This document shows, piece after piece, positions 7,008 through 53,690 of a stretch of DNA of 64,000 nucleotides; the stretch's first letter is position 1; every line of letters begins with the position of its first letter. The notes under the pieces were generated by a model. The model was not told where the DNA came from. It ran no database searches and saw nothing but the letters and a program-made list of their open reading frames with translations. The DNA is from Erythrobacter sp. (lineage in GTDB: Bacteria > Pseudomonadota > Alphaproteobacteria > Sphingomonadales > Sphingomonadaceae): NCBI GenBank assembly GCA_009993605.1, contig JAACTB010000009.1, positions 1 through 64,000 of the forward strand. The letters run 5' to 3'. The position numbers were made by a program, and so were the translations under genes.

Positions 7008-7607
7008 ATGCAAGTGGATGTCAGAAAGATTTTTGGCCCGTGGAAGGACGGCTATCTCCTCGATCGGCATATCGTTCACAGCGAATATCTCGGCGAAGAC
7101 GAAGACGGCAAACCGCAATTCGACAACACGCGTTCGGAAGCGGGCGAGGCGCTGTTCCAGCTGAAATACCGTTCGGACTGGTCGCAGGTCAAAATCATCG
7201 CCCAGGCGCTTTTCGACGACATCATTCCCAATCTTCCGAAGATCGATCTGATCGTGCCGGTCCCCGCGTCCACCGCCCGTACCCGCCAGCCGGTGGACGA
7301 GATCGCGGAGGCGCTGGGCCAGCTCGCAGGAGTTCCCGTGAGCACGACACTCGTGCAGGCGAAGCCGCCATCGGCGGATGCGAAGCCGCTCAAGAACCTC
7401 GTCACCAAGGAGGAAAAAGACGCCGCTTTGCAGGGGCGCTTCTCGATCGATGTCTCGGTGCCGGTTCCCAAGGACGCGACCGTCGTCGTGGTCGACGATC
7501 TGTTCGCCACCGGCGCGTCGATGGGGGCTATCTGCACCCTCTTGCAAACGCATCCGAAGGTGGCGAGTGTCTATGCCGTCGCCGTCACCAAGACAGGAAA
7601 AGCATGA
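7008..7607 (+). CDS. ComF-like phosphoribosyltransferase of a two-gene unit
   Basis: The 199-residue protein has a type I phosphoribosyltransferase core. VPVPASTARTRQ near 83-94 fits the segment after the first strand, and VVVVDDLFATGAS near 159-171 is the PRPP-binding loop. The KYRSDW region resembles ComF proteins, but the ComF zinc-binding N-terminus is absent. The ATG at 7008 has an AAGGG motif eight bases upstream; a TTG at 7002 is less likely. The gene overlaps the next by four bases. The base or nucleotide handled is unknown; the partner suggests nucleotide processing or signalling. Confidence 0.8.
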   Translation: MQVDVRKIFGPWKDGYLLDRHIVHSEYLGEDEDGKPQFDNTRSEAGEALFQLKYRSDWSQVKIIAQALFDDIIPNLPKIDLIVPVPASTARTRQPVDEIAEALGQLAGVPVSTTLVQAKPPSADAKPLKNLVTKEEKDAALQGRFSIDVSVPVPKDATVVVVDDLFATGASMGAICTLLQTHPKVASVYAVAVTKTGKA

Positions 7608-8158
7608 CCACAGTCTTCATCGCCGGATCGATCGCGATCAAGCGCCTGCACGACAAGGTGCGGCAGCGGATCGACAGGGCGGTGACGGGCGGCCTGTCCG
7701 TCGTCGTCGGCGATGCCGACGGCGCGGATACGGCGATTCAGCAATATCTGATGATGCTCAATGCCGAAAATGTCACGGTCTATTGCAGCGGAGAGGAACC
7801 GCGCAATAATTTGGGTGAATGGACGGTCAACCGGGTATTTCCCAGCGCCGCGCCGGGCACGCGCACCTTCTTCACCGCCAAGGACATCGAAATGGCGCAG
7901 GACGCCGATTACGGGCTGATGATCTGGGACAGCAAGAGCACCGGCACGCTCAGCAACGTCATGGAATTGCTGGCGCAGGAGAAGAAATCCGTCGTCTTCG
8001 TCAACAAGGTCAAAAGCTTCGTCAACGTCGCGTCCGTCGCGGATCTGCACGATCTGCTGACGCATATGTCGGATCATGCGCGCCAGAAGGCGGAGACGAA
8101 GATCAAGCTTTCAAAGCGCGTGGCAGCGCTGGGGCAGATGCAGCCCTCGTTCCTCTGA
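7604..8158 (+). CDS. SLOG-like Rossmann-fold nucleotide-processing protein
   Basis: The 184-residue protein starts with MTTVFIAGS and has a glycine-rich loop VVVGDADGADTAIQQYL near residues 33-49. Later DADYGLMIWDSKSTGTLSNV near 100-119 matches the pattern of SLOG/YspA-type (DprA/LOG superfamily) domains, which bind nucleotides or nucleotide sugars. The C-terminus is a charged helix. Translation is coupled to the PRTase by an ATGA overlap. No transmembrane segment or effector domain is seen. The fold assignment is from motif pattern only; the substrate is unknown. Confidence 0.6.
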   Translation: MTTVFIAGSIAIKRLHDKVRQRIDRAVTGGLSVVVGDADGADTAIQQYLMMLNAENVTVYCSGEEPRNNLGEWTVNRVFPSAAPGTRTFFTAKDIEMAQDADYGLMIWDSKSTGTLSNVMELLAQEKKSVVFVNKVKSFVNVASVADLHDLLTHMSDHARQKAETKIKLSKRVAALGQMQPSFL

Positions 8159-8206
8159 CAGGGTGCGCCGCCGGGTCACGCTGATCCGGCGCGCCGTCTC
8201 CGATTG

Positions 8207-8791
8207 CTAGCCCACCCAGGCCGCGACCTGACCGGCGACATCGTTCGCCGCCTGGTTCAGCGCCGAACCCACGCTCGCGACATCCGCGGTTACGCCCGGC
8301 ACGCGCGCTTCGAAGCGGCGTGTCTGCACGGCATTGCCCTGACCGGGGCGCACCGCATCGAACACCACCACAACGCTCTGGCTGCGCACGTCATAGCCGA
8401 ACTGGCGGAGCGTCCCCGTCAGGCGGTTTTCGGCGAGCACGCCGGGATCGTCGCCATCGATGACCAGCCGCCCGGTGCGGGTGCGGATGGTCTCGGCGAT
8501 CAGGCGACGCAATTGCCGCGCGGGCTTTTCGACCCACACTGCGTCCTCGAGATAGGCAATGCTGGTATCATCGACCTGGACGGGCACGCGGGTGTTGTCG
8601 AGCGCCGGGGCCGCTTCGAACTCCTGCATCACCAGCGCCTGCGCGGTCGAGCCGCCGATGGCGTTGCCGGCAGGCGCAGTCGCCGTGGGCGTCAGCGTCA
8701 ACAGGCTGTCGGGCACGTCGGGCCCGAAGCTGAGACAGCCGCCGAGCAGCAGGGCAGGTGCCAATCCTGCGAGAACACGGAACGATTTCAT
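8207..8791 (-). CDS. ABC-type transport auxiliary lipoprotein (Mla/PqiC-like)
   Basis: This is a periplasmic lipoprotein expected to work with the MCE transporter encoded just upstream. The start MKSFRVLAG is chosen because an AGGAAG motif precedes it by seven bases; the GTG at 8809 overlaps the neighbour. A signal peptide ends in a lipobox (ALLLGGC, Cys near residue 19). The 194-residue body matches the LPS-assembly-lipoprotein-like fold seen in MCE operons. It is the fourth gene of the mlaEFD-type operon, 14 bases after the MlaD-like gene. Confidence 0.8.
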   Translation of the reverse strand: MKSFRVLAGLAPALLLGGCLSFGPDVPDSLLTLTPTATAPAGNAIGGSTAQALVMQEFEAAPALDNTRVPVQVDDTSIAYLEDAVWVEKPARQLRRLIAETIRTRTGRLVIDGDDPGVLAENRLTGTLRQFGYDVRSQSVVVVFDAVRPGQGNAVQTRRFEARVPGVTADVASVGSALNQAANDVAGQVAAWVG

Positions 8792-8805
8792 CGCGGGACT
8801 TCCTC

Positions 8806-9753
8806 TCACGGCTTGTAATCGGGCAGCGGCTGGCTGGACAGCAGAGCGCCCGCCCCCTGCTCGTCGATCTTTTCGGTCACGTCGCGCAGCGCCTTGCTGG
8901 TCGCCCTGAGGTCGCGCAGCGTGGCTTCGGCGGCGGGCAGCGTGCTTTCGGTCAATTGGCGCGTGGCCGGGCGCGCTTCTTCGAGCGTCTGCTCGAGCGC
9001 CTTGGCGGCCCCGCTGGCAGAGGTCAGCGTGGCCCGCAATTGCGCCGCAATCGCTTCGCCTTCCTGATTGATAATCCGGTCGGTCGAGCGCGTCACGGTT
9101 TCGAACTCGTTCAGCGCCTCGCCCGCTTCGCGCAGGGTGACCTGCAATTCGGTCATGGTGCGTTCGATTTGCGGCGTCGCGCTGGCGAGGTCCGCGCTCA
9201 TCCGGTCGGTGTTGCGCAGGATGCCCGCGATCGAAGCCTGGTTGTCGTCCGACAGCAGCATGGTCAGCCGCTCAGTCAGCGTCGCCAGGCGTTCCAACAA
9301 CAGCGGTGCGTTGGCAAGGATTTCGCCGAAACCGCCTGCCTTGGGCGGGATCACCGGCACGCCTTCGGTGCAGGCGGTCGTCTCGCAGGTGATCGGCGGC
9401 TGGCCGCTGCGCGCGCCATCCAAGAGGATGGTGGACACGCCTGTAAAGCTGGACTGGATGGTGGCGGTTGTACCGACTAGGATCGGCGTATTGGGCTTCA
9501 CCTCGATCCGCACGCGCACAAATTCGGGGTCTTTCTCCCACAACACGATATCGCTCACCTGCCCCACCGGGACGCCGGTGAAGGAGACCTGCGATCCGGT
9601 GGCAAGGCCCGAGACCGAAGTCTTGAAAAAGATATCGTATTCGTCCCGATCCCCCTGGCCCAGACGCGCGAGCCAGATGACGAAGGCCGCCAGCGCGGCC
9701 AGAAGGACGAGGGTGACGACACCCACCCAGACGTGATTGGCACGCGTTTCCAT
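8806..9753 (-). CDS. MlaD-family MCE protein
   Basis: This is the substrate-binding MCE component of an inner-membrane lipid transporter. One N-terminal membrane helix (VWVGVVTLVLLAALAAFVIWLA, residues 8-29) is followed by an MCE domain (residues ~38-115, including GLATGSQVSFTGVPVGQVSDI). A long helical C-terminus of about 180 residues, rich in Leu, Ala, Thr and Glu, follows. At 315 residues it is the long alphaproteobacterial form rather than the ~180-residue E. coli MlaD. Its start lies three bases after the ATPase gene stop. Confidence 0.9.
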   Translation of the reverse strand: METRANHVWVGVVTLVLLAALAAFVIWLARLGQGDRDEYDIFFKTSVSGLATGSQVSFTGVPVGQVSDIVLWEKDPEFVRVRIEVKPNTPILVGTTATIQSSFTGVSTILLDGARSGQPPITCETTACTEGVPVIPPKAGGFGEILANAPLLLERLATLTERLTMLLSDDNQASIAGILRNTDRMSADLASATPQIERTMTELQVTLREAGEALNEFETVTRSTDRIINQEGEAIAAQLRATLTSASGAAKALEQTLEEARPATRQLTESTLPAAEATLRDLRATSKALRDVTEKIDEQGAGALLSSQPLPDYKP

Positions 9754-41741: not shown

Positions 41742-43253
41742 ATGCGTCATATCGATCACGTCATTTCCGGCCACAGCGGTGGCCCAGACGGCAGTGGCGG
41801 CGGCGGCCGCACTCACAAGGTCTGGAACCCGTCCACGGGCGAAGTCCAGGCCGAGGTGCCGCTTGGCGATGCCGCTCTGCTCGCCAAGGCTGTCGAGACG
41901 GCGAAGAAAGTCCAGCCCGAATGGGCCGCGACCAATCCCCAACGCCGCGCGCGTGTGATGTTCGAATTCAAACGGTTGGTCGAAGAGAACAAGCAGGCGC
42001 TCGCCGAACTGCTGTCGAGCGAACACGGCAAGGTAGTCGACGACGCGCATGGCGACGTGCAGCGCGGGCTCGAAGTGATCGAATACGCGTGCGGCATCCC
42101 GCAGGCGCTGAAGGGCGAATACACACAAGGCGCGGGGCCCGGGATCGACGTCTATTCGATGCGCCAGCCGCTCGGCATCGGGGCGGGCATCACGCCGTTC
42201 AACTTCCCGGCCATGATCCCGATGTGGATGTTCGGCATGGCGATCGCGGCGGGCAACGCCTTCATCCTGAAGCCCAGCGAGCGCGATCCGAGCGTGCCCG
42301 TTCGCCTCGCCGAACTGTTCGTGGAAGCGGGCGCGCCGGAAGGCCTCTTACAGGTCGTGCATGGCGACAAGGAAATGGTCGACGCCATCATCGACCATCA
42401 GGATATCGCCGCGATCAGCTTCGTCGGATCGAGCGACATCGCGCAATATATCTACTCGCGCGGTACGGCGAACGGCAAGCGCGTCCAGGCTTTCGGCGGC
42501 GCCAAGAACCACGGCATCGTCATGCCCGACGCCGATCTCGATCAGGTGGTGAACGATCTGGCCGGTGCAGCCTTCGGCTCGGCTGGCGAACGCTGCATGG
42601 CGCTGCCGGTCGTGGTTCCGGTGGGCGAGGATACCGCCGATCGCCTGCGCGAAAAGCTCATCCCCGCGATCAACGCCCTGCGTGTCGGCGTCTCGACCGA
42701 CACGGACGCGCATTACGGCCCCGTCGTCACGCCCGAACACAAGCAACGCATCGAACAATGGATCGACACCGCCGAGAAGGAAGGCGCCGAGGTCGTGATC
42801 GATGGGCGCGGCTTCTCTTTGCAGGGGCATGAGGACGGCTTCTTCGTCGGCCCGACCCTGCTCGACCGAGTGACGACCAAGATGGAAAGCTACAAGGAAG
42901 AGATTTTCGGTCCCGTGCTCCAGATCGTGCGCGCCAAGGATTTCGAGGAAGCGGTCAAGCTGCCCAGTGAACACCAATACGGCAACGGTGTAGCCATCTT
43001 CACGCGCAACGGCCACGCCGCGCGCGAATTCGCGCACCGGGTCAATGTCGGCATGGTCGGCATCAACGTGCCGATCCCCGTGCCCGTCAGCTATCACAGC
43101 TTCGGCGGCTGGAAGCGTTCCGGCTTCGGCGATATCGACCAATACGGGCAGGAAGGCCTGCGGTTCTGGACCAAGACCAAGAAGGTGACTCAGCGCTGGC
43201 CGGATGGCGGCGGTGACGGGTCGAACGCCTTCGTCATCCCGACGATGGGATGA
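41742..43253 (+). CDS. mmsA: CoA-acylating methylmalonate-semialdehyde dehydrogenase
   Basis: This enzyme converts methylmalonate semialdehyde to propionyl-CoA, the last step of valine breakdown. The catalytic Cys is in GSAGERCMALPV, and the NAD-binding region has ITPFNFPAMIPMWMFGMAIAAGN and FVGSSDIAQYIY. Length is 503 residues. GAGGAG precedes the ATG by six bases. It is the first gene of a valine-degradation cluster running to mmsB and overlaps the small lipoprotein gene by four bases. Confidence 0.95.
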   Translation: MRHIDHVISGHSGGPDGSGGGGRTHKVWNPSTGEVQAEVPLGDAALLAKAVETAKKVQPEWAATNPQRRARVMFEFKRLVEENKQALAELLSSEHGKVVDDAHGDVQRGLEVIEYACGIPQALKGEYTQGAGPGIDVYSMRQPLGIGAGITPFNFPAMIPMWMFGMAIAAGNAFILKPSERDPSVPVRLAELFVEAGAPEGLLQVVHGDKEMVDAIIDHQDIAAISFVGSSDIAQYIYSRGTANGKRVQAFGGAKNHGIVMPDADLDQVVNDLAGAAFGSAGERCMALPVVVPVGEDTADRLREKLIPAINALRVGVSTDTDAHYGPVVTPEHKQRIEQWIDTAEKEGAEVVIDGRGFSLQGHEDGFFVGPTLLDRVTTKMESYKEEIFGPVLQIVRAKDFEEAVKLPSEHQYGNGVAIFTRNGHAAREFAHRVNVGMVGINVPIPVPVSYHSFGGWKRSGFGDIDQYGQEGLRFWTKTKKVTQRWPDGGGDGSNAFVIPTMG

Positions 43254-43579
43254 TGGCGATGCGCAATCCTTCTCTTCTCGGCGCCGCTGCGCCCCTCGCT
43301 TTGGCTCTGGCGGGATGCGCAGCGACGCAGTCGGGCGGTCCGATCGAGGACCGCGAGGCGGGCGTCGCCAATGGCGGCGAATGCACCACCGAAAGCACTC
43401 AGCGTTTCATCGGTCAGACCGCGTCGTCCGAAACCGGCGCGGCCATTCTCACGGCGACGAAATCGCGCACGCTGCGCTGGGGCCCGCCGGACAGCATGTT
43501 CACCATGGATTACCGCCCGGACCGGGTCACCGTGATGTACGACGCCCAATTGCGGATCACGGAAATCCGCTGCGGCTGA
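43250..43579 (+). CDS. lipoprotein with I78-type peptidase-inhibitor domain
   Basis: The 109-residue product has a signal peptide and lipobox (LALALAGCAAT, Cys near residue 23). From about residue 53 an I78-like inhibitor fold follows, with FIGQTASSETGAAI, LRWGPPDSMFTMDYRPDRVTV and DAQLRITEIRCG. I78 proteins are small inhibitors related to the potato-I type. The ATG overlaps mmsA by four bases, so translation is coupled. The protease it might inhibit is unknown, and it has no evident role in valine metabolism. Confidence 0.75.
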   Translation: MMAMRNPSLLGAAAPLALALAGCAATQSGGPIEDREAGVANGGECTTESTQRFIGQTASSETGAAILTATKSRTLRWGPPDSMFTMDYRPDRVTVMYDAQLRITEIRCG

Positions 43580-43630
43580 GCACGGCTCCGCCCCTTCCCA
43601 CCGACAATCTCCCCCGCTAGAGCCCCGCCC

Positions 43631-44776
43631 ATGACAGGACAATTCCAGCTTACTTCCGACCAGCTCGCGATCCAGGAAATGGCGCAGCGCTTCACCGCCG
43701 ACAACATCACGCCCCATGCCGGGGAGTGGGACCAGACCAGCCATTTCCCCATCGACGTGATCAAGCAGACCGCCGAACTCGGCTTCGGCGCGATTTATGT
43801 CAGCGAGGAATCGGGCGGGATCGGCCTCGGCCGCCTCGAAGCCGCGCTGATCATGGAGGCGATGGCCTATGGATGCCCCACGACCAGCGCCTTCATCTCG
43901 ATCCACAACATGGCTAGCTGGATGATCGACCAGTTCGGCGGCCAGCACGTGAAGGACAAGTATCTTCCCGACCTCGTCACGATGGACAAGGTCGCAAGCT
44001 ATGCCCTGACCGAACCGGGCAGCGGATCGGATGCGGCAGGCCTCAAGACCAGCGCGGTGCGGGATGGCGACCATTACATCCTCAACGGCACCAAGCAGTT
44101 CATCTCCGGCGCAGGCTATAACGACGTCTATGTCGCCATGGTCCGCACTGGCGAGCACAAGACGAAGGGCATCACCTGCCTGGTCATCGACAAGGACACG
44201 CCCGGCGTCAGCTTCGGCAAGCCGGAAAAGAAACTCGGCTGGAACGCCTCGCCCACTGCGCAGGTCATTTTCGAAGATGCGCGCGTCCCGGTCGAAAACC
44301 GTGTCGGCGACGAGGGCGAAGGCTTCCGCTTCGCGATGATGGGCCTCGATGGCGGTCGCCTCAACATCGGCGCCTGCTCGCTGGGCGGGGCGCAACGCTG
44401 TCTCGACGAAGCGGTCAAATACACCAGGGAACGCCAGCAATTCGGCCAGCAGATCGCCGAATTCCAGAACACCCAGTTCATGCTCGCCGACATGGCGACC
44501 GAATTGGAGGCCTCGCGCGCCCTCCTCTACCTCGCCGCCGCCAAGGTGACCGACAACGCGCCCGACAAGTCGCGCTTTTCCGCCATGGCCAAGCGCCTCG
44601 CCACCGACAATGGCAGCAAGATCGTCAACGATGCGCTGCAATTGTTCGGCGGCTACGGCTATCTCAAGGAATACCCGATCGAACGCTTCTGGCGCGACCT
44701 GCGCGTGCATTCGATCCTGGAAGGCACCAATCAGGTCATGCGCATGATCGTGGGCCGGGACCTGCTACGGCAGTGA
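43631..44776 (+). CDS. isobutyryl-CoA dehydrogenase-like acyl-CoA dehydrogenase
   Basis: This FAD enzyme should oxidise isobutyryl-CoA to methacrylyl-CoA. Signatures are ALTEPGSGSDAAGLKTSAV and, near the C-terminus, LFGGYGYLKEYPIERFWRDLRVHSILEGTNQVM, where the catalytic Glu is in LEGTN. Length is 381 residues. Its place between mmsA and the 3-hydroxyisobutyryl-CoA hydrolase gene supports the valine substrate. The exact chain length preference is inferred from context. Confidence 0.92.
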   Translation: MTGQFQLTSDQLAIQEMAQRFTADNITPHAGEWDQTSHFPIDVIKQTAELGFGAIYVSEESGGIGLGRLEAALIMEAMAYGCPTTSAFISIHNMASWMIDQFGGQHVKDKYLPDLVTMDKVASYALTEPGSGSDAAGLKTSAVRDGDHYILNGTKQFISGAGYNDVYVAMVRTGEHKTKGITCLVIDKDTPGVSFGKPEKKLGWNASPTAQVIFEDARVPVENRVGDEGEGFRFAMMGLDGGRLNIGACSLGGAQRCLDEAVKYTRERQQFGQQIAEFQNTQFMLADMATELEASRALLYLAAAKVTDNAPDKSRFSAMAKRLATDNGSKIVNDALQLFGGYGYLKEYPIERFWRDLRVHSILEGTNQVMRMIVGRDLLRQ

Positions 44777-45162
44777 TGGGTCTTAGGATGACCGCGCTGG
44801 TCGTGCCTGACTACGACGAGGCGATCGCGTTCTTCCGGGACGCGCTCGGCTTTCGTCTCCATCAGGATACCGATCTTGGTTCGGGCAAACGATGGGTAGT
44901 CATGTCGGGCCTGACGGGCGCCAAGCTGTTGCTCGCGCGCGCTGCGAATGACGAGCAAAGCAAAGCAATCGGCAATCAGACGGGCGGGCGCGTAGGCTGG
45001 TTTCTGGAAACCGACGATTTTGCCGCCGATCACGGGCGCATGGCCGCATACGGCGTAGACTTCACCGATGGACCGCGCGAGGAGGCCTATGGCACGGTCG
45101 CGGTCTTTACCGATCCCTGGGGCAACCGCTGGGACCTGATCGAACACAGGAAAGCAGCATGA
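44776..45162 (+). CDS. VOC-superfamily protein
   Basis: The 128-residue protein has the glyoxalase/bleomycin-resistance fold: TALVVPDYDEAIAFFRDALGF at the start, a middle VVMSGLTGAKLLLARA and the C-terminal VFTDPWGNRWDLIEH. The ATG overlaps the acyl-CoA dehydrogenase stop by one base; a start four codons on (MTALVV) is also possible. It overlaps the next gene by four bases. Function is unknown; it could be a lyase, epimerase or binding protein acting on a cluster metabolite. Confidence 0.8.
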   Translation: MGLRMTALVVPDYDEAIAFFRDALGFRLHQDTDLGSGKRWVVMSGLTGAKLLLARAANDEQSKAIGNQTGGRVGWFLETDDFAADHGRMAAYGVDFTDGPREEAYGTVAVFTDPWGNRWDLIEHRKAA

Positions 45163-46211
45163 CCGACGAGGTCCTCATCCACACCCATGGCCGGGTCGGC
45201 CATATCTCCCTGAACCGTCCCAAGGCGCTCCACGCGCTGACGCTCGACATGTGCCACGCGATGAGCGCGGCTTTGTTCACATGGGCGGATGACGACCAGA
45301 TCGAGGCCGTGATCCTCGACCATGCCGAAGGGCGCGGGTTCTGTGCGGGCGGAGACATCAATCTCCTGCGGGAAAGCGCGCTGAACGATGGCGGCGAGAG
45401 TGGGCGTAAGTTCTTCCACGACGAATACCAGCTCAACCACCAGATGATGACCTATGACAAGCCGATCGTGGCTTTCATGGATGGCGTCACCATGGGCGGC
45501 GGGGTCGGCATTGCGCTGCCCTGCAAATACCGGGTTGCGACCGAGAACACGCGCTTCGCCATGCCGGAAACGGGCATTGGCCTGTTCCCCGATGTCGGCG
45601 GCGGCTGGCATCTCTCGCGGCTCGGCGGGCGGCTCGGCCAGTTTCTGGCGCTGACCGGCGCGCGGCTGGATGGGGCGGAGTGCTTGTGGGCGGGTCTCGC
45701 CACGCATTACCTGCCCAGCGAGATGATCGCGGAAGCCAAGGCGCGCATTGTCGACAAGCCGGGGCGGATTGCGGGCGTGCTCAGCGAGATGGTCGGCAGC
45801 CCGCCCAAGGCGCGGATCGAGGACAATGCCGACAAGATCGCGCGCCATTTCGCTTCCGACGAGTACGAAGACATCCTCGCCAGCCTTGAGGCGGCTGACA
45901 CCGACTGGGCGCAGAAGGAGCGCGACACGCTCGGCACCAAGAGTCCGCAGACCTGCAAGGTGGCGCTGCGCCAGTTGAAGGAAAGCGCCGCTCTCACCGA
46001 TTTCGCCGACAATCTGCGGATGGAATACCGCATCGCCAGCCGCGTTCTGGTTCGCCCCGATTTTGCCGAGGGCGTGCGCGCGGTCATCGTCGACAAGACC
46101 AACGATCCGAAATGGAACCCGCCCACGCCCGAGGAGGTGAGCGAGGAGCTGATCGACAGCATCTTCGCCCCGCTTCCCGAAGGCGAGGAGTGGACGCCGC
46201 TGAACCCCTAG
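45159..46211 (+). CDS. 3-hydroxyisobutyryl-CoA hydrolase
   Basis: This crotonase-fold enzyme releases 3-hydroxyisobutyrate in valine breakdown. The oxyanion-hole loop is GRGFCAGGDINLLRE, and the active-site region is RFAMPETGIGLFPDVGGGWHLSRL. The 350-residue length, with the extended C-terminal region (NLRMEYRIASRVLVRPDFAEGVRAVIVDK), separates it from plain enoyl-CoA hydratases. It overlaps the VOC gene by four bases. Confidence 0.92.
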   Translation: MTDEVLIHTHGRVGHISLNRPKALHALTLDMCHAMSAALFTWADDDQIEAVILDHAEGRGFCAGGDINLLRESALNDGGESGRKFFHDEYQLNHQMMTYDKPIVAFMDGVTMGGGVGIALPCKYRVATENTRFAMPETGIGLFPDVGGGWHLSRLGGRLGQFLALTGARLDGAECLWAGLATHYLPSEMIAEAKARIVDKPGRIAGVLSEMVGSPPKARIEDNADKIARHFASDEYEDILASLEAADTDWAQKERDTLGTKSPQTCKVALRQLKESAALTDFADNLRMEYRIASRVLVRPDFAEGVRAVIVDKTNDPKWNPPTPEEVSEELIDSIFAPLPEGEEWTPLNP

Positions 46212-46214
46212 CTC

Positions 46215-46292
46215 CGTCATCCCCGCGCAGGCGGGGATCCAGCGCGACGGAGCGCCGACCTACCCTAGATTTCCGCCTGCGCGGGAATGACG
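46215..46292. repeat. 78-bp palindromic repeat element
   Basis: Two inverted arms, CGTCATCCCCGCGCAGGCGG and the reverse complement of CGTCATTCCCGCGCAGGCGG, enclose about 32 bases. Each arm is itself a small hairpin (CCCCGC/GCGGGG). This is the widespread GTCATYCCCGCGCAGGCGG type of intergenic repeat. It lies between the hydrolase stop and the enoyl-CoA hydratase start, a few bases upstream of that gene's ribosome-binding site. Confidence 0.88.
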
Positions 46293-46304
46293 AGAGGCAG
46301 AAAA

Positions 46305-47102
46305 ATGGCCGATTACGAAACCATCACCGTCGAAACCGATGCGCAGGGGAATAATGGCGTCACGCTGATAACGCTGAATCGCCCCAAGGCGCTGAATGCG
46401 CTGAACTCGCAGGTTCTCAGCGATCTGATCGAGGCCTTCGCCGCCTATCAGGCCGACGAGACGCAGCTGTGCGCCGTCCTGACCGGATCGGGCGAAAAGG
46501 CGTTCGCGGCGGGCGCGGACATCAAGGAGATGAGCGAGAAGGAAGCGGCCGACTTCTACCTCCAGGATTTCTTCGCACCCTGGACCAGCGAGATCGTGAA
46601 GAAGACCCGCAAGCCCTGGATCGCGGCGGTGAACGGCTTCGCCTTGGGCGGCGGATGTGAGCTCGCCATGATGGCCGATTTCATCATCGCCAGCGAAAAT
46701 GCGAAGTTCGGCCAGCCCGAGATCAATCTCGGCGTCGCACCGGGCATGGGCGGATCGCAGCGCCTGACCAAGGCGATCGGCAAGTCCAAGGCGATGGAAA
46801 TGTGCCTGACCGGCCGGATGATGGGCGCCGAGGAGGCCGAGCGCAGCAATCTGGTGGTGCGCGTTGTGCCGCATGATGAATTGCTGGCCGACGCGCTCAA
46901 AACCGCCGCCACCATCGCCAGCAAGCCGCCCATGGCCGCGATCGCCAACAAGGAAATGGTCAACGCCGCCTTCGAGACCTCGCTCGACCAGGGCCTGATC
47001 GTCGAACGCCGCATCTTCCAGATTCTCGCCGCAAGCGAAGACAAGAAGGAAGGCATGGCGGCCTTCGTCGAAAAGCGTGAGGGTGAGTGGAAGGGACGTT
47101 AA
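46305..47102 (+). CDS. enoyl-CoA hydratase
   Basis: This crotonase-fold hydratase probably converts methacrylyl-CoA to 3-hydroxyisobutyryl-CoA. Oxyanion-hole residues are in [12 protein letters not shown] and [11 protein letters not shown]; catalytic Glu residues are in the [11 protein letters not shown] and [19 protein letters not shown] segments. The start MADYETI is preceded by GAGAGGCAG; the six-codon longer track start lies in the repeat element. Length is 265 residues. Palindromic repeats lie on both sides. Confidence 0.93.
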
Positions 47103-47106
47103 CGTG

Positions 47107-47187
47107 CGTCATCCCAGCGGCAGCTGGAATGTGGTCCGGCGGCGTCCAAAATGAATGAGAGAGATCCCAGCTTTCGCTGGGACGACG
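47107..47187. repeat. 81-bp palindromic repeat element
   Basis: Arms CGTCATCCCAGCGGCAGCTGG and the reverse complement of CGTCGTCCCAGCGAAAGCTGG face each other. Each arm can fold into a CCAGC/GCTGG hairpin. It resembles the 46.2-kb element in layout but has a different core (CCCAGC rather than CCCCGC). It sits between the hydratase stop and mmsB. Confidence 0.85.
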
Positions 47188-47197
47188 GAGAGAAAAC

Positions 47198-48070
47198 ATG
47201 AAAATCGCCTTCATCGGCCTCGGCAATATGGGCGGCGGGATGGCTGCGAACCTCGTGAAGGCGGGGCATTCGGTGAACGCCTTCGACCTGAGCGCAGACG
47301 CGCTCGACGCTGCGAAGGCGAATGGCTGTACGCCCTTCACCGATGCGGGCGAGGCCTGTGCGGATGTCGATGCGGTCGTCACCATGCTGCCCAACGGCGA
47401 AATCGTGAAGTCGGTCTATGAGGGCAGCGTGATCGGCAACGCACCGGCAGGTGCGGTGCTGCTCGACTGTTCGACCATCGATGTCGCCACCGCGAAGGAG
47501 ACAATTGCTGCTGCCGAAAGCGCTGGCTACGCAATGGTCGATGCGCCCGTTTCCGGCGGCATCGCGGCGGCGAATGGCGGCACGCTCACCTTCATGGTCG
47601 GTGGCACCGAAGAAGCGTTTGAGCGGGCGAAACCGGTGCTCGAAGCCATGGGCAAGGCCGTGATCCACGCAGGCGATGCGGGCGCAGGGCAGACGGCGAA
47701 GATCTGCAACAACATGCTGCTCGCCATCACCATGATCGGAACGTCCGAAGCGATGAAGATGGCCGAGAAGCTGGGCCTCGATCCGCAGAAATTCTACGAG
47801 ATCTCGTCGCAGTCCTCGGGCTATAACTGGTCGCTCAACGCCTATACCCCGCTTCCCGGCGTGGGCGTCGAAAGCCCGGCGGACAAGGACTATCAGGGCG
47901 GCTTCGCGACCGCGCTGATGCTGAAGGATCTGCGCCTCGCGATGGAAGCCGCCGAAAATTCCGATGCCCCCGTGCCGCTGGGCGCGCGTGCCGCCTCGCT
48001 CTACGAGGATTTCGCAGGCGCGGGAAATGGCGGGCTCGATTTCTCGGCGATTATCAAGACCTATCGATAG
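47198..48070 (+). CDS. mmsB: 3-hydroxyisobutyrate dehydrogenase
   Basis: This NAD enzyme oxidises 3-hydroxyisobutyrate to methylmalonate semialdehyde, the substrate of MmsA. The N-terminal motif is IGLGNMGGGMAANLVKAGH, the substrate-binding segment is DAPVSGGIAAANGGTLTFMVGG, and the catalytic Lys lies in GAGQTAKICNNMLLA. Length is 290 residues. Its 3' end overlaps the convergent Nmad3-like gene by 17 bases. Confidence 0.95.
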   Translation: MKIAFIGLGNMGGGMAANLVKAGHSVNAFDLSADALDAAKANGCTPFTDAGEACADVDAVVTMLPNGEIVKSVYEGSVIGNAPAGAVLLDCSTIDVATAKETIAAAESAGYAMVDAPVSGGIAAANGGTLTFMVGGTEEAFERAKPVLEAMGKAVIHAGDAGAGQTAKICNNMLLAITMIGTSEAMKMAEKLGLDPQKFYEISSQSSGYNWSLNAYTPLPGVGVESPADKDYQGGFATALMLKDLRLAMEAAENSDAPVPLGARAASLYEDFAGAGNGGLDFSAIIKTYR

Positions 48071-48788
48071 TCTCGACGATCCGGGCGAGCCAATCGCGCG
48101 GGGCGCGACGTCTGCCGATATCGGCGACGAATTCCTGCCCGCGCGCGACGCTTCTGAGCCGCTTGCCGGGCAGCCAGCGGTCCGCGCGATCGTGATAGCT
48201 CAATCCGCCCGGCTTGAGCCAGCCGGGCCGGTCCCATAGCGTCAGCGGACCTTCGGGGACCGTCAGGCGCAGCACATCGCAAGCGGTCCGCGCCACGCGC
48301 CCCGGCCCGCGATAGATCGTGTCGTTCTTCCCATGCATGGCGAGCGCGTGCGGATGGCCGAGCGCAATGAGATCGTCAGGTACGCCATCCGCCAGCGATA
48401 CGATTTCTTCGACCTTCAGATATCCGAAGATGCGATGATGCGATGCTTCGCCGTCCTTGCGGAACAGGCCGAAGAACACGAAGACGTCACCCAGCCCCAC
48501 CCCCTGATTGGCAAGATGGGTCTGCGCCGCGCCGACTTGGCCGAACAGGCAGGTGCCGTCGTCGAGAAACATCGGATCGTGATGGCACAAATCGTCCGGC
48601 CCGACCCTGCCCCGGCTCGCGCGCGAGGCATGGTCGCCCAATCCGAGATCGCGATAGCTGGTGCGCGAGGCTGCGCCCGCCGGGATCGGCAGGCTGAGCG
48701 GAATACCGCCGTTCGGGCCATCCACGATCGGCGAAGGCCCGCCGCCCGATCCGCTGTCGAACCCCTTGCGGCTGAAGACGATCCTCAT
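48054..48788 (-). CDS. Nmad3-like nucleotide-modification-associated protein
   Basis: The 244-residue protein begins MRIVFSRKGFDSGSGGGPSP, then GGIPLSLPIPAG, and has FGQVGAAQTHLANQGVGLGDVFVFFGLFR at residues 82-110 and IFGYLKVEEIV further on. I recognise this pattern as nucleotide modification associated domain 3, predicted in comparative studies to take part in DNA base modification. No enzyme reaction is known. The ATG is chosen over a 36-residue basic extension; it lies 13 bases after the gcvPB stop, so it is probably the last gene of the glycine-cleavage operon. It overlaps mmsB convergently. Confidence 0.65.
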   Translation of the reverse strand: MRIVFSRKGFDSGSGGGPSPIVDGPNGGIPLSLPIPAGAASRTSYRDLGLGDHASRASRGRVGPDDLCHHDPMFLDDGTCLFGQVGAAQTHLANQGVGLGDVFVFFGLFRKDGEASHHRIFGYLKVEEIVSLADGVPDDLIALGHPHALAMHGKNDTIYRGPGRVARTACDVLRLTVPEGPLTLWDRPGWLKPGGLSYHDRADRWLPGKRLRSVARGQEFVADIGRRRAPRDWLARIVETIDRS

Positions 48789-48801
48789 GCCGCGCGGGAC
48801 G

Positions 48802-50436
48802 TCACCGACCGCCGACCTCGCTTCTGACGGCGCGGCCACTCGGCGCAAGCTCGCCTTCCCAGGCCAAGAGCGGCTTCCTCGCCGCCTGCGTTTCATCCAA
48901 GCGGCGACGCGGCGCGTAATGCGGCGCGCTCTTCATGCTTTCATCGCCCGCGATTGCGCGCTCCGCCACGCTGCGCAACGCCATGATGAACTGGTCGAGC
49001 GCGGCCTTGCTCTCAGTCTCGGTCGGTTCGACCAGCATGGCCCCGTGGACGACGAGCGGGAAATACATCGTCATCGGATGATAGCCCTCGTCGATCAGCG
49101 CCTTGGCCAGATCGAGCGTCGAGAGACCTTCGGCAAAGCCCTTATCGCCGAACAGCGCCTCGTGCATGCACGGCCCGCTATGCGCGAACGGCGCGTGCAG
49201 CAGGTCTTCAAGGCTGCGGAGCACGTAATTGGCGTTGAGCACGGCGTCTTCGGCAACCTGCCGCAGCCCGTCCGCCCCGTGGCTGAGGATGTAGGTCAGC
49301 GCGCGGGTGAACATGCCCATCTGGCCGTGGAAGGCGGTCATCCGCCCGAAGCTCTGCATCTTGCCGCCGAAATGCTCCTCGGAGAAGCTGTCGGCGTCTT
49401 CCTCCTCGACGAGATGCACCACCCCGTCCGCAGTGCGCGCGGTATAGGGCAGCGGCGCGTAGGGGCTGAGCGCTTCGGACAGTACGACCGGACCCGAGCC
49501 CGGCCCCCCGCCGCCATGGGGCGTCGAAAAGGTCTTGTGCAAATTGATATGCATCGCATCGACGCCGAGATCGCCGGGGCGCACCCGACCGACGATGGCG
49601 TTGAAATTCGCCCCGTCGCAATAGACGTAACCGCCCGCCGCATGGACCGCGTCAGAAATCGCCTTCATGTCCCGCTCGAACAGGCCGCAGGTGTTGGGAT
49701 TGGTGATCATGACGCCCGCAACATCTGGGCCGAGCCGCGCTTTCAACGCCTCTAGATCGACGCGGCCTTCGCTGGTCGCCGGGATATCCTCCACCCGATA
49801 GCCGGCGAAGGCGGCTGTCGCGGGATTGGTCCCGTGCGCGCTTTCCGGCACCAGGATGACCTCGCGCGCATCGCCCTTTGCCTCCAGCGCGGCGCGAATG
49901 CAGAGGATGCCGCACAATTCGCCATGCGCGCCCGCCTTGGGGCTCATCGCGACGCCGTGCATGCCGGTCAGCTTGATCAACCAGTGTGCCAGCTCGTTCA
50001 TGACCTCGAGCGCCCCGCGCACCGTATCGACCGGCTGCAAGGGATGCACATCGGCGAAGCCCGGCATCCGCGCGACTTTTTCGTTGAGGCGCGGATTGTG
50101 CTTCATCGTGCAGCTGCCGAGCGGGAAGAGCCCGAGATCGATGGCGTAATTCTGGCGGCTGAGCCGCGTATAATGGCGCACCGTTTCCGGCTCGGTCAGG
50201 CCGGGCAAGCCGATCGGTTCGGAGCGGGCGAGATCGCCGAGGCGGCTGGCCAGACGATCGGCGTCCGCCCCGGCAGCGAAATCGACGCCGGTCGTATCGG
50301 GGCCACCAATTTCGAAGATCAACGGCTCTTCCAGCATCAGCGCGCGATTGCCGGTGACCGTGTCGGGGCCGCTGACGGCGTTATGGCCTTCGACCGGAGT
50401 TCCGGGCTTCCAGCCGGACTTGTTGGGCGCGTTCAT
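48802..50436 (-). CDS. gcvPB: glycine dehydrogenase (decarboxylating) subunit 2
   Basis: This is the PLP-binding half of the split P-protein. The Schiff-base Lys is in [21 protein letters not shown]. Other marks are [25 protein letters not shown] and [11 protein letters not shown]. Length is 544 residues; the last ~40 residues are Arg-rich and weakly conserved. It overlaps gcvPA by four bases and pairs with it to decarboxylate glycine onto the H-protein lipoyl arm. Confidence 0.95.
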
Positions 50437-51794
50437 GACAGGGCTCCTTCCAGAGCGGAGGCGAGCGTTTCGATATCCTCCTCGGTGGTGGTCTCGGTCA
50501 CGGCGACCAGCAATCCGTCCGCCAGCGCATCATTGCCGGGGAACAGCCGCCCGAGCGACACGCCCGCGAGGACGCCGTCATCGGCCAGTTTACGGACCAC
50601 TGCGCGGGCATCCTGACCGATGCGCACTGTGAATTCGTTGAAGAAGCTCTCGTTCAGCACGCTCACCCCCGGCACCTTGGCCAGACGATCGGCGGCGATG
50701 CAGGCGAGGCGGTGGTTTTCCGCCGCAAGGGCGCGCAGGCCTTTCTCGCCCAGCAGCGTCATATGCACGCTGAAGGCGAGCGCGCAGAGGCCGGAATTGG
50801 TGCAGATATTGCTCGTCGCCTTCTCGCGACGGATATGCTGTTCGCGGGTCGAAAGCGTGAGGACGAAGCCGCGCTTGCCCTCCGCATCCACCGTTTCGCC
50901 GCACAACCGACCCGGCATCTGGCGGACATGCTTGGGATCGCGCACGGCGAAGAGGCCGAGATACGGCCCGCCGAACTGGAGGCCGACGCCGATCGCCTGC
51001 CCTTCGCCCACGACGATGTCCGCGCCCTGCTCGCCCGGTGATTTCACCGCGCCCAGCGCCACCGGTTCGGTGTTGACGACGATCAGCAGCGCGCCCTTGT
51101 CGTGCGCCGCATCCGCGATCTCCTGGAGGTTTGGCAGGCGGCCGAGAATGTCGGGATATTGCACGACGACGCAGCTGGTCGTGTCGTCGATCCGCGCGAT
51201 CAGGCCCTGATTGTCGGGCGCGGATTGCAGGGCAGGCTCGGCCCCTGCGATCTCGTCCTCGGTGAATTTCGCCATGGTGCGTACAACCTCGGCGTAATGA
51301 GGGTGCAACGCGCCCGAAAGCACCACGCGATCGCGCTTGGTGATCCGCGCCGCCATGGCCACCGCTTCCCAGCAGGCGGTCGAGCCGTCATACATCGATG
51401 CGTTCGCCACCGCGCAGCCATAGAGGCGCGCGACCTGGCTCTGGAATTCGAACAGCATCTGCAGCGTGCCCTGCGCGATTTCCGGCTGGTAGGGCGTGTA
51501 GGCGGTCAGGAATTCGCCGCGCTGGATGATGTGATCGACGCTGGCCGGAACGTGATGGCGATAGGCCCCCGCGCCTAGGAAGAACGGCGCATCGCCGGCG
51601 GCGAGGTTCTTCTTCGACAGCCGCCGCATATGCTTTTCGACCGCCATTTCGCTGGCATGCATCGGCAGGCCTTCGATCGGGCCGCTGAGGCGCGCCTCTT
51701 CGGGAACGTCCACGAACAGATCGTCGATCGACTTGGCGCCGACTTTCTCGAGCATCGCGCCGCGATCGGCATCGGTCAGGGGTAGGTAGCGCAT
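50433..51794 (-). CDS. gcvPA: glycine dehydrogenase (decarboxylating) subunit 1
   Basis: This is the N-terminal half of the split P-protein: [60 protein letters not shown] and [14 protein letters not shown] are characteristic. Length is 453 residues. AGGAG lies five bases upstream of the ATG. A strong GC stem-loop separates it from gcvH. It forms a heterotetramer with GcvPB. Confidence 0.95.
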
Positions 51795-51839: not shown

Positions 51840-52211
51840 TTACAGCCCGTCGCAGAAGCTCTTATAAGCGGCTTCGTCCATCAGACCGTCTAGCTCGCCC
51901 TTGTCGGCGATGGTCAGTTTGAAGAACCAGCCGTCGGTTTCCGGCGAGGAATTGACCAGAGCCGGATCCTCGTCGAGCGCCTGGTTCGCTTCGGTCACTT
52001 CGCCGGTGATGGGCGCATAGACATCGCTCGCCGCCTTGACGCTTTCGACCACGGCGGCATCCTTGCCCTTCGCGACCTGCGCACCCGTATCGGGCAGTTC
52101 GACGAAGACGATGTCGCCCAGCTGTTCCTGCGCGTAATCGGTGATCCCGACGGTTGCGGTATCTCCGTCGACATCGATCCATTCGTGTTCTTCGGTGAAA
52201 TAACGGGCCAT
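51840..52211 (-). CDS. gcvH: glycine cleavage system H protein
   Basis: This lipoyl carrier shuttles the aminomethyl group between P and T proteins. The lipoylated Lys lies in [19 protein letters not shown] near residue 61. The N-terminus [33 protein letters not shown] and C-terminus YKSFCDGL are typical. Length is 123 residues. It lies three bases after gcvT. Confidence 0.97.
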
Positions 52212-52214
52212 CGG

Positions 52215-53405
52215 TCAGTTTCCTCTGTGATAGCGATGGGGGACGAAGGGGAGCTTGGCGACCTTTGCGGGCAGACGCTTGTTACGAACCTCGACGGTGA
52301 GTTCGGTTCCCTCGCCCGCGTGATCGCTCATGACATAACCCATGGCGATCGGATGGCCGAGCGTTGGGGAGAAGCCGCCGCTGGTAACGCGACCGACCTG
52401 ATCCTCGCCGTGATAGACGATCGCGCCTTCGCGCGCGGGCAGGCGACCTTCGAGGACGAGGCCCACGCGCCTGTCGGCGCAGCCATCGGCCAGTTTCACC
52501 GCGCAGGCAGAGTGGCCCATCCACCCGCCGCTCTCGCGCCGCGTCTTCGTCAGCGCGAAGGTGAGGTCGGCGGTGACGGGATCGATTTCGGCAGTGAGGT
52601 CGTGGCCGTAAAGCGGTAGCCCCGCTTCGAGTCGCAGCGAATCGCGCGCGCCTAAACCTGCCGGGCGCACCTCGATCTCGGCGCACAGGCGATTGGCGAG
52701 CGATTCGACGAATTCCGCCGGAACCGAAATCTCGAACCCGTCCTCGCCGGTATAGCCCGCGCGGGTGATCCGCAGCGGCCATTCGCCGAACTGGTAGAGA
52801 GTGGATTGCATGAAGACGAGATCGTCGGGCACGCCGCGCATCACCCGGCCCAACGCCGTCGCCGCCTTGGGGCCCTGGAGTGCGATCAGCGCCTGTTCGT
52901 CCATGTGAGTGAGCGTGACCTCGTCGGACAGATGTTCGCGCAGATGGGCGATATCGTCCCACTTCATCGCGCCGTTGACGACGACGTAATAGGTCGGTTC
53001 GCCCCAATGGCCTTCCGTGCTTGCCTCTTCATCGCCCTCGATCCAGGGCGTGGCGTTGGTGACCATCAGATCGTCGAGAATGCCGCCCTCGTCATTGAGC
53101 AGCAGCGAATAGCGCACCCGGCCCGGCTTCAGCGAAGCGATCGCGCCCGGCAGCAGCTTTTCAAGCTCCGCAGCGGCATTCTCGCCCGTGACCATCAGCT
53201 GGCCCATATGGCTGACATCGAACAGGCCCGCCTGATCGCGCGTCCAGTCATGCTCGGCCACGATGCCGCCGCCCTGATCCTTGTTGTATTGGATCGGCAT
53301 ATCGTAGCCCGCGAAGGGCACCATGCGCGCGCCCTTCTGGCGGTGCCAGGCATCCAGCGGCAGGGTCTCGGTGGTTTCGGGCGTATCGCCGGTGTCGTCG
53401 CTCAT
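52215..53405 (-). CDS. gcvT: glycine cleavage system aminomethyltransferase (T protein)
   Basis: GcvT transfers the one-carbon unit to tetrahydrofolate. Motifs are GARMVPFAGYDMPIQY, GLFDVSHMGQ, the active-site Asp region LNDEGGILDDLMVT, and the folate-binding AGYTGEDGFEIS and GLGARDSLRLEAGLPLYGHDL. The start MSDDTGDTPE gives 396 residues and resembles relatives. An upstream ATG at 53456 has a purine-rich AGAGGGGG motif that also forms the 3' end of the riboswitch, and would add 17 atypical residues. First gene of the operon. Confidence 0.93.
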   Translation of the reverse strand: MSDDTGDTPETTETLPLDAWHRQKGARMVPFAGYDMPIQYNKDQGGGIVAEHDWTRDQAGLFDVSHMGQLMVTGENAAAELEKLLPGAIASLKPGRVRYSLLLNDEGGILDDLMVTNATPWIEGDEEASTEGHWGEPTYYVVVNGAMKWDDIAHLREHLSDEVTLTHMDEQALIALQGPKAATALGRVMRGVPDDLVFMQSTLYQFGEWPLRITRAGYTGEDGFEISVPAEFVESLANRLCAEIEVRPAGLGARDSLRLEAGLPLYGHDLTAEIDPVTADLTFALTKTRRESGGWMGHSACAVKLADGCADRRVGLVLEGRLPAREGAIVYHGEDQVGRVTSGGFSPTLGHPIAMGYVMSDHAGEGTELTVEVRNKRLPAKVAKLPFVPHRYHRGN

Positions 53406-53458
53406 ATCAGGCCCCGCAAGCATGGTGGCGCCGAAAGCGGCGCAATCGAAATCCATGC

Positions 53459-53690
53459 CCCCTCTGTCGGGAAACCTGAGAGCTTAGCCGGCCGTTTCGG
53501 GGTTCCCGTAACGGTTGGCATTCCCCTTCGGTGGCTGCCAACGGTTCGCACCGCGAGCAACGCTTTCCAGAGTGTCGAGGGCCCGCGCGGTCCCTTTGCC
53601 TGAGAGTTTCCGGGGCGGTTGCTCCTTCGGCGCCGTGGGGCCAACCGAAACCGGCTTGCCCCGCGAGCTCTCCCGCGCGCGCCCGCCACA
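53459..53690 (-). promoter_or_regulatory. tandem glycine riboswitch upstream of gcvT
   Basis: Reading the minus strand, two glycine aptamers follow one another. The first has GCGGGAGAG, a GCCGAAGGAGCAA loop and ACTCTCAGGCAAAGGGACC. The second has CACCGAAGGGGAATGCC and GCTCTCAGGTTTCCCGACAG, ending in AGGGGG. These are the conserved signatures of the gcvT element, which normally turns on glycine cleavage genes when glycine is high. It accounts for most of the 333-base gap between gcvT and the TauE gene. Confidence 0.92.

Follow-up and report, generated by a model that had tools for sequence, protein, structure and literature searches.

A predicted PUA-like Nmad3 protein encoded at the end of a riboswitch-headed glycine cleavage operon in part of the Erythrobacteraceae

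The window, that is, the whole stretch of DNA analysed, comprised 64,000 nucleotides of contig JAACTB010000009.1 of an Erythrobacter sp. (assembly GCA_009993605.1). The gene under study lies on the minus strand at the end of a glycine cleavage operon, the order being glycine riboswitch, gcvT, gcvH, gcvPA, gcvPB and Nmad3 (Table 1). The gap between gcvPB and Nmad3 contained neither a Shine-Dalgarno-like purine run nor a terminator-like site. An earlier note on this sequence had placed the gene 13 bases after gcvPB in a glycine-riboswitch operon; the coordinates confirmed this placement and supplied the strand, which the note had not given. A gene for 3-hydroxyisobutyrate dehydrogenase converges on Nmad3, overlaps its 3′ end by 17 bases and is its most constant neighbour in the family. 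This gene closes a plus-strand run (41742-48070) that reads as valine degradation, with genes for methylmalonate-semialdehyde dehydrogenase, acyl-CoA dehydrogenase, enoyl-CoA hydratases and 3-hydroxyisobutyrate dehydrogenase, only the last being confirmed by a profile match.

Table 1. Features of the Nmad3 locus, numbered from the first base of the window.
Feature	Position	Strand	Evidence and remarks
3-hydroxyisobutyrate dehydrogenase	47198..48070	plus	TIGR01692, 397 bits; convergent with Nmad3
Nmad3 (PF18754) CDS	48054..48788	minus	244 aa; ATG at 48788, stop ending 48054; single copy in genome
gcvPB-Nmad3 gap	48789..48801	minus	13 bases between gcvPB stop and Nmad3 start
gcvPB	48802..50436	minus	NCBIfam NF003346, 679 bits, above cut-off
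gcvPA	50433..51794	minus	NCBIfam NF001696, 611 bits, above cut-off
gcvH	51840..52211	minus	NCBIfam NF002270, 174 bits, above cut-off
gcvT	52215..53456	minus	NCBIfam NF010093, 510 bits, above cut-off; start as given by the ORF tool, true start may be further in
Glycine riboswitch aptamer, operon head	53578..53685	minus	RF00504, 50.5 bits

The product of the gene is Nmad3, a named family of unknown function. Its resemblance to Nmad3 had been suggested in the earlier note from an FSRKGFDS start and the block FGQVGAAQTHLANQGVGLGD; both are present in the open reading frame, near the N-terminus and in mid-protein, respectively, and the Pfam search that the note had proposed returned PF18754 (E 5.2e-69) over the entire profile (positions 1-247 of 247). 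A score of 233 bits, where the cut-off is 27, places the identity far beyond chance, and the protein is a full-length member in which nothing departs from the family. It matched nothing in NCBIfam or PADLOC, and searches of Pfam, NCBIfam and PDB sequences detected neither a writer domain nor a catalytic motif belonging to any known family of enzymes. A PDB sequence match (E 0.43) and a PHROG match (E 0.046) were discarded as too weak.

The relation of Nmad3 to the gcv genes was surveyed in 61 genomes of the window's genus, 54 of which hold Nmad3. In all 54, gcvPB was found on the same contig and strand. The two genes were joined in 24 genomes, with gcvPB 19-28 bases upstream of Nmad3, and were separated by 0.85-21.6 kb in the other 30. 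The separated distances were 0.85-0.96 kb (n=5), about 2.2 kb (n=16) and 19.6-21.6 kb (n=8), and in one further genome the interval apparently runs across the contig origin. The longest intervals (G148, G882, G896, G902, G907, G913, G881 and G901) suggest a shared large insert or rearrangement. Four genomes of the genus carried gcvPB without Nmad3.

A second survey covered 80 related loci; the GTDB genomes that supplied them carry, with few exceptions, the label Erythrobacteraceae or Sphingomonadaceae. The gcvPB gene was directly upstream of Nmad3 in 19 loci, 0.8-3.3 kb away in 44, and absent from the examined flank in 17. In the eight separated intervals that were read, the likely genes oppose Nmad3 and typically encode a MobA-like NTP transferase and a polysaccharide flippase. 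On a tree of GcvPA (63 rows), the joined or separated state required six changes, at least five of them forced by supported branches, and the tree did not settle which state is the older. A glycine riboswitch headed the operon in all eight joined relatives tested, with two aptamers in six. A single aptamer was detected in the window, where these six relatives carry two in tandem. No gcv neighbour of Nmad3 was found outside the Erythrobacteraceae among the loci read; the position behind gcv is peculiar to part of that family, and in these loci the linkage is not kept over the range of Nmad3.

The separated and joined copies also differed in their upstream sequence. Separated Erythrobacteraceae copies (for example L065, L094 and L033) carry a bipartite, promoter-like motif, TTGTC(A)-N15-GGCA, which mostly begins 35-41 bases before the Nmad3 start codon. 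The core TTGT[CG] occurred 30-50 bases before the start in 49 of 60 distinct separated upstream regions against about 1.7 expected from shuffles, a count whose weight is overstated by the relatedness of the sequences, and in the same range in none of 25 joined copies, so that the contrast is nonetheless clean. The motif does not agree with the canonical sigma-70 -10 box. The short distance from motif to start would suit a near-leaderless mRNA. With the motif absent from joined copies and a riboswitch at the operon head, joined Nmad3 probably follows gcv transcription, and separated Nmad3, with its motif, probably has a promoter of its own. For the window, co-transcription of gcvPB and Nmad3 is plausible, in agreement with the 13-base gap, the lack of a terminator-like site and the lack of a separate promoter motif.

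An AlphaFold2 model of Nmad3 built from 51 sequences was of high confidence (pLDDT 94.8, pTM 0.92). The best Foldseek match in the PDB was THYN1, an EVE protein, with 5-methylcytosine DNA (E 0.024). Of the 50 leading PDB matches, about two thirds were, by reading, EVE, YTH, SRA, ASCH or other PUA-like structures. Several ASCH and DUF3850 proteins were among the named viral structure matches, although no PDB or viral structure match reached E 0.001 and TM-scores were low. The model of a second family, Nmad2 (PF18753), was built from only six sequences (pLDDT 78) and its first 20 matches were all PUA-like (EVE, YTH, McrB N-domain, LON N-domain or ASCH entries), again with no structural match at E 0.001 and with low TM-scores. 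The two families are separate, the hhalign profile comparison between them being not significant. We infer a PUA-like fold class for both proteins from structural matches that are weak but convergent, none being significant alone; the assignment may not be new. Members of the PUA-like superfamily (EVE, YTH, SRA and ASCH) read modified bases, and some of them act as hydrolases on these.

By sequence reading, Nmad3 shares with EVE (PF01878) a similar GD-x-F/L strand followed by a V-x-E strand in the barrel. However, no EVE match was obtained in Pfam at a threshold of E 1, hhalign against an EVE alignment was not significant, and no structure E-value was significant either; Nmad3 is also longer (244 versus about 140-170 residues) and its invariant residues differ. 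Twelve polar or charged residues of Nmad3 were invariant over 20 clusters below 62% identity, the invariance of SRKGFD being biased since part of this set was gathered with that motif. EVE domains bind modified bases in many contexts (PMC7641849).

These results bear on the proposal of the earlier note that Nmad3 helps to install a DNA or RNA base modification from the glycine or one-carbon units of glycine cleavage, and hence is expressed with glycine. The short gap behind a glycine riboswitch and the occurrence of gcvPB and Nmad3 on one contig and strand throughout the genus, joined in 24 genomes, fit that proposal. Against it stand the genomes of the same genus in which the two genes lie 0.85-21.6 kb apart with opposite-strand genes in the intervals read, the promoter-like motif of most separated copies, the genomes with gcvPB and no Nmad3, the lack of a gcv neighbour in loci examined beyond the Erythrobacteraceae, and structural matches that point to a binder or processor of modified bases and not to a writer. 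A writer role was ranked low because no such domain was matched. We consider this reading very improbable: a glycine-fed DNA modifier is unlikely, and base modification supplied by glycine cleavage has as its sole support the gene order in part of one family. The expectation that expression follows glycine held in part, in that this lineage probably shares the gcv transcript, as the short gaps in 24 genomes, the missing motif and the riboswitch in all eight relatives suggest, but a functional tie to glycine was not supported. The association with glycine has the look of a chance local arrangement in which a neighbouring operon captured Nmad3, and not of conserved functional coupling, because in most relatives the gene stands separate and seems to have a promoter to itself.

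Nmad3 is patchily distributed, being present in 45 of 151 genomes of the window's family, 9 of 399 of the phylum and none of 14 control genomes. Relatives were found in 11 IMG/VR contigs, whose viral status is that assigned by IMG/VR and may include prophage edges; tblastn against INPHARED phages gave no match for the window Nmad3, the Nmad3 of viral contig L163 or the Nmad2 of L151. Endonuclease IV (nfo) is encoded directly upstream of Nmad3 on the same strand in five Halomonadaceae-like genomes (by a profile match in one and 88-89% identity in the other four, the Halomonadaceae name resting on sequence reading), and a DinG-type helicase gene (dinG) lies beside it in three further such genomes. 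Three viral contigs have genes for ParB-N/DNA-methylase proteins in the vicinity of Nmad3, backed by profile matches in two of the contigs; these may simply be genes of the phage packaging region. Isolated neighbours such as efp-epmA (L138), metA-like genes or ribosomal protein genes were dropped as functional clues since each was seen in one lineage.

Alternatively, Nmad3 could be an enzyme of PUA-like fold, perhaps an amidohydrolase or a nuclease, activities known from some ASCH proteins; its task would be to remove or recycle modified nucleosides instead of recognising them in DNA or RNA. The invariant polar and charged residues are, in our judgement, more numerous than a plain reader pocket needs. 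In YqfB, an ASCH protein, a Thr-Lys-Glu triad serves the hydrolysis of N4-acetylcytidine (PMC6972931); nucleoside-directed activity is thus known in a superfamily to which the structural matches would assign Nmad3 as well. However, Nmad3 matched no known enzyme family by a catalytic motif, and the recurrence of nfo and dinG beside it would fit DNA repair no less than the salvage of nucleosides. YqfB has 103 residues, against 244 in Nmad3. We regard this enzymatic reading as possible but rather unlikely.

The recurrent partner of Nmad3 was Nmad2, which adjoins it in seven loci: G156, G219, G699, a Burkholderia stagnalis replicon, G008, and viral contigs L158 and L163. In the Burkholderia stagnalis replicon a truncated Nmad2 follows Nmad3. 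G008, from the window's family, carries adjacent Nmad3 (C1:930424-930990) and Nmad2 (C1:931139-931630) with in-frame stops in both, for which sequencing error is possible since the assembly is only 86% complete. In L163 (5311-7550), Nmad2, Nmad3 and, directly after Nmad3, DUF1643 stand in a row, followed by a gene for 445 aa at 7563-8900. Nmad2 was absent from the window's genome and from most Nmad3 loci. In the window's family it was present in five of 151 genomes, two of them also holding Nmad3 against 1.5 expected, and co-occurrence was thus not enriched. In the class of G219, Nmad2 and Nmad3 were present in 6 and 5 of 274 genomes, and in the two genomes with both they were adjacent each time. 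Outside this pairing, Nmad3 otherwise attaches to the ends of unrelated operons.

Nmad2 keeps company of its own. It occurs together with MazG_C proteins in L146, L148, L187 and L189. UDG-superfamily proteins accompany it in L187 and L188 (by reading, one also in L189), and a ThsB-type TIR protein does so in L188 (by reading, also in L146 and L147). L187, L188 and L189 are viral contigs; integrases stand beside L188 and L189 by reading. The Nmad2-MazG_C-UDG-TIR clusters look like a candidate nucleotide-based defence module resembling phage defence. NMAD, MazG, MazG-C and UDG are included in the predicted defence domains of the DefensePredictor paper, where those still uncharacterised are unvalidated (PMC13092281). 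Its main text does not name the family, and its NMAD is therefore not equated here with Nmad2 or Nmad3.

Such company raises the reading that Nmad3 and Nmad2 form a mobile immune or counter-defence module sensing modified phage nucleotides, with the chromosomal copies domesticated. The adjacency of the two genes in bacteria and viral contigs, the TIR, MazG_C and UDG-like genes around Nmad2, the listing of NMAD as a predicted, unvalidated defence domain and, in G219, the proximity of an AbiE-type toxin-antitoxin pair to the Nmad2-Nmad3 locus are in its favour. Against this, PADLOC gave no match, the defence-like neighbours are mainly those of Nmad2 and of a few distant Nmad3 loci, the window's genome lacks Nmad2, the listed NMAD is of unspecified family, and the stable chromosomal presence of Nmad3 across the window's genus (54 of 61 genomes) is not what a typical defence gene shows. 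We judge this improbable. Unlikely, too, is the further proposition that Nmad2 and Nmad3 are an unrecognised PUA-like reader/eraser pair of mobile immune modules, with Nmad3 domesticated in the Erythrobacteraceae and placed in some species under a glycine riboswitch so that its level would follow one-carbon metabolism.

The reading we prefer, and hold to be somewhat better than evenly balanced, is that Nmad3 is a PUA-like single-domain protein that binds and possibly processes modified nucleobases and has become joined to the gcv operon in some lineages. The protein most likely uses a conserved polar pocket for binding, and perhaps also for processing, a nucleobase, nucleotide or nucleic acid that is modified or damaged, with Nmad2, also predicted to be PUA-like, as a recurrent partner elsewhere. 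In the Erythrobacteraceae, Nmad3 lies between gcvPB on one side and the convergent 3-hydroxyisobutyrate dehydrogenase gene on the other. Many species have further genes between gcvPB and Nmad3, and there Nmad3 carries a promoter-like motif of its own; in other species, including that of the window, Nmad3 directly follows gcvPB without the motif and probably rides the glycine-riboswitch transcript.

What is known is the family, of which the window gene is a clear member. The position behind gcv seemed a functional clue, yet it is lineage-specific and coupled to the absence of the promoter-like motif, and gene order of this kind calls for caution. The useful outcome is a testable hypothesis for the Nmad3 family as PUA-like binders or processors of modified bases that are recurrently paired with Nmad2. 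If the PUA-like reading is true, Nmad3 and Nmad2 would join the families by which cells and viruses detect modified nucleic acids.
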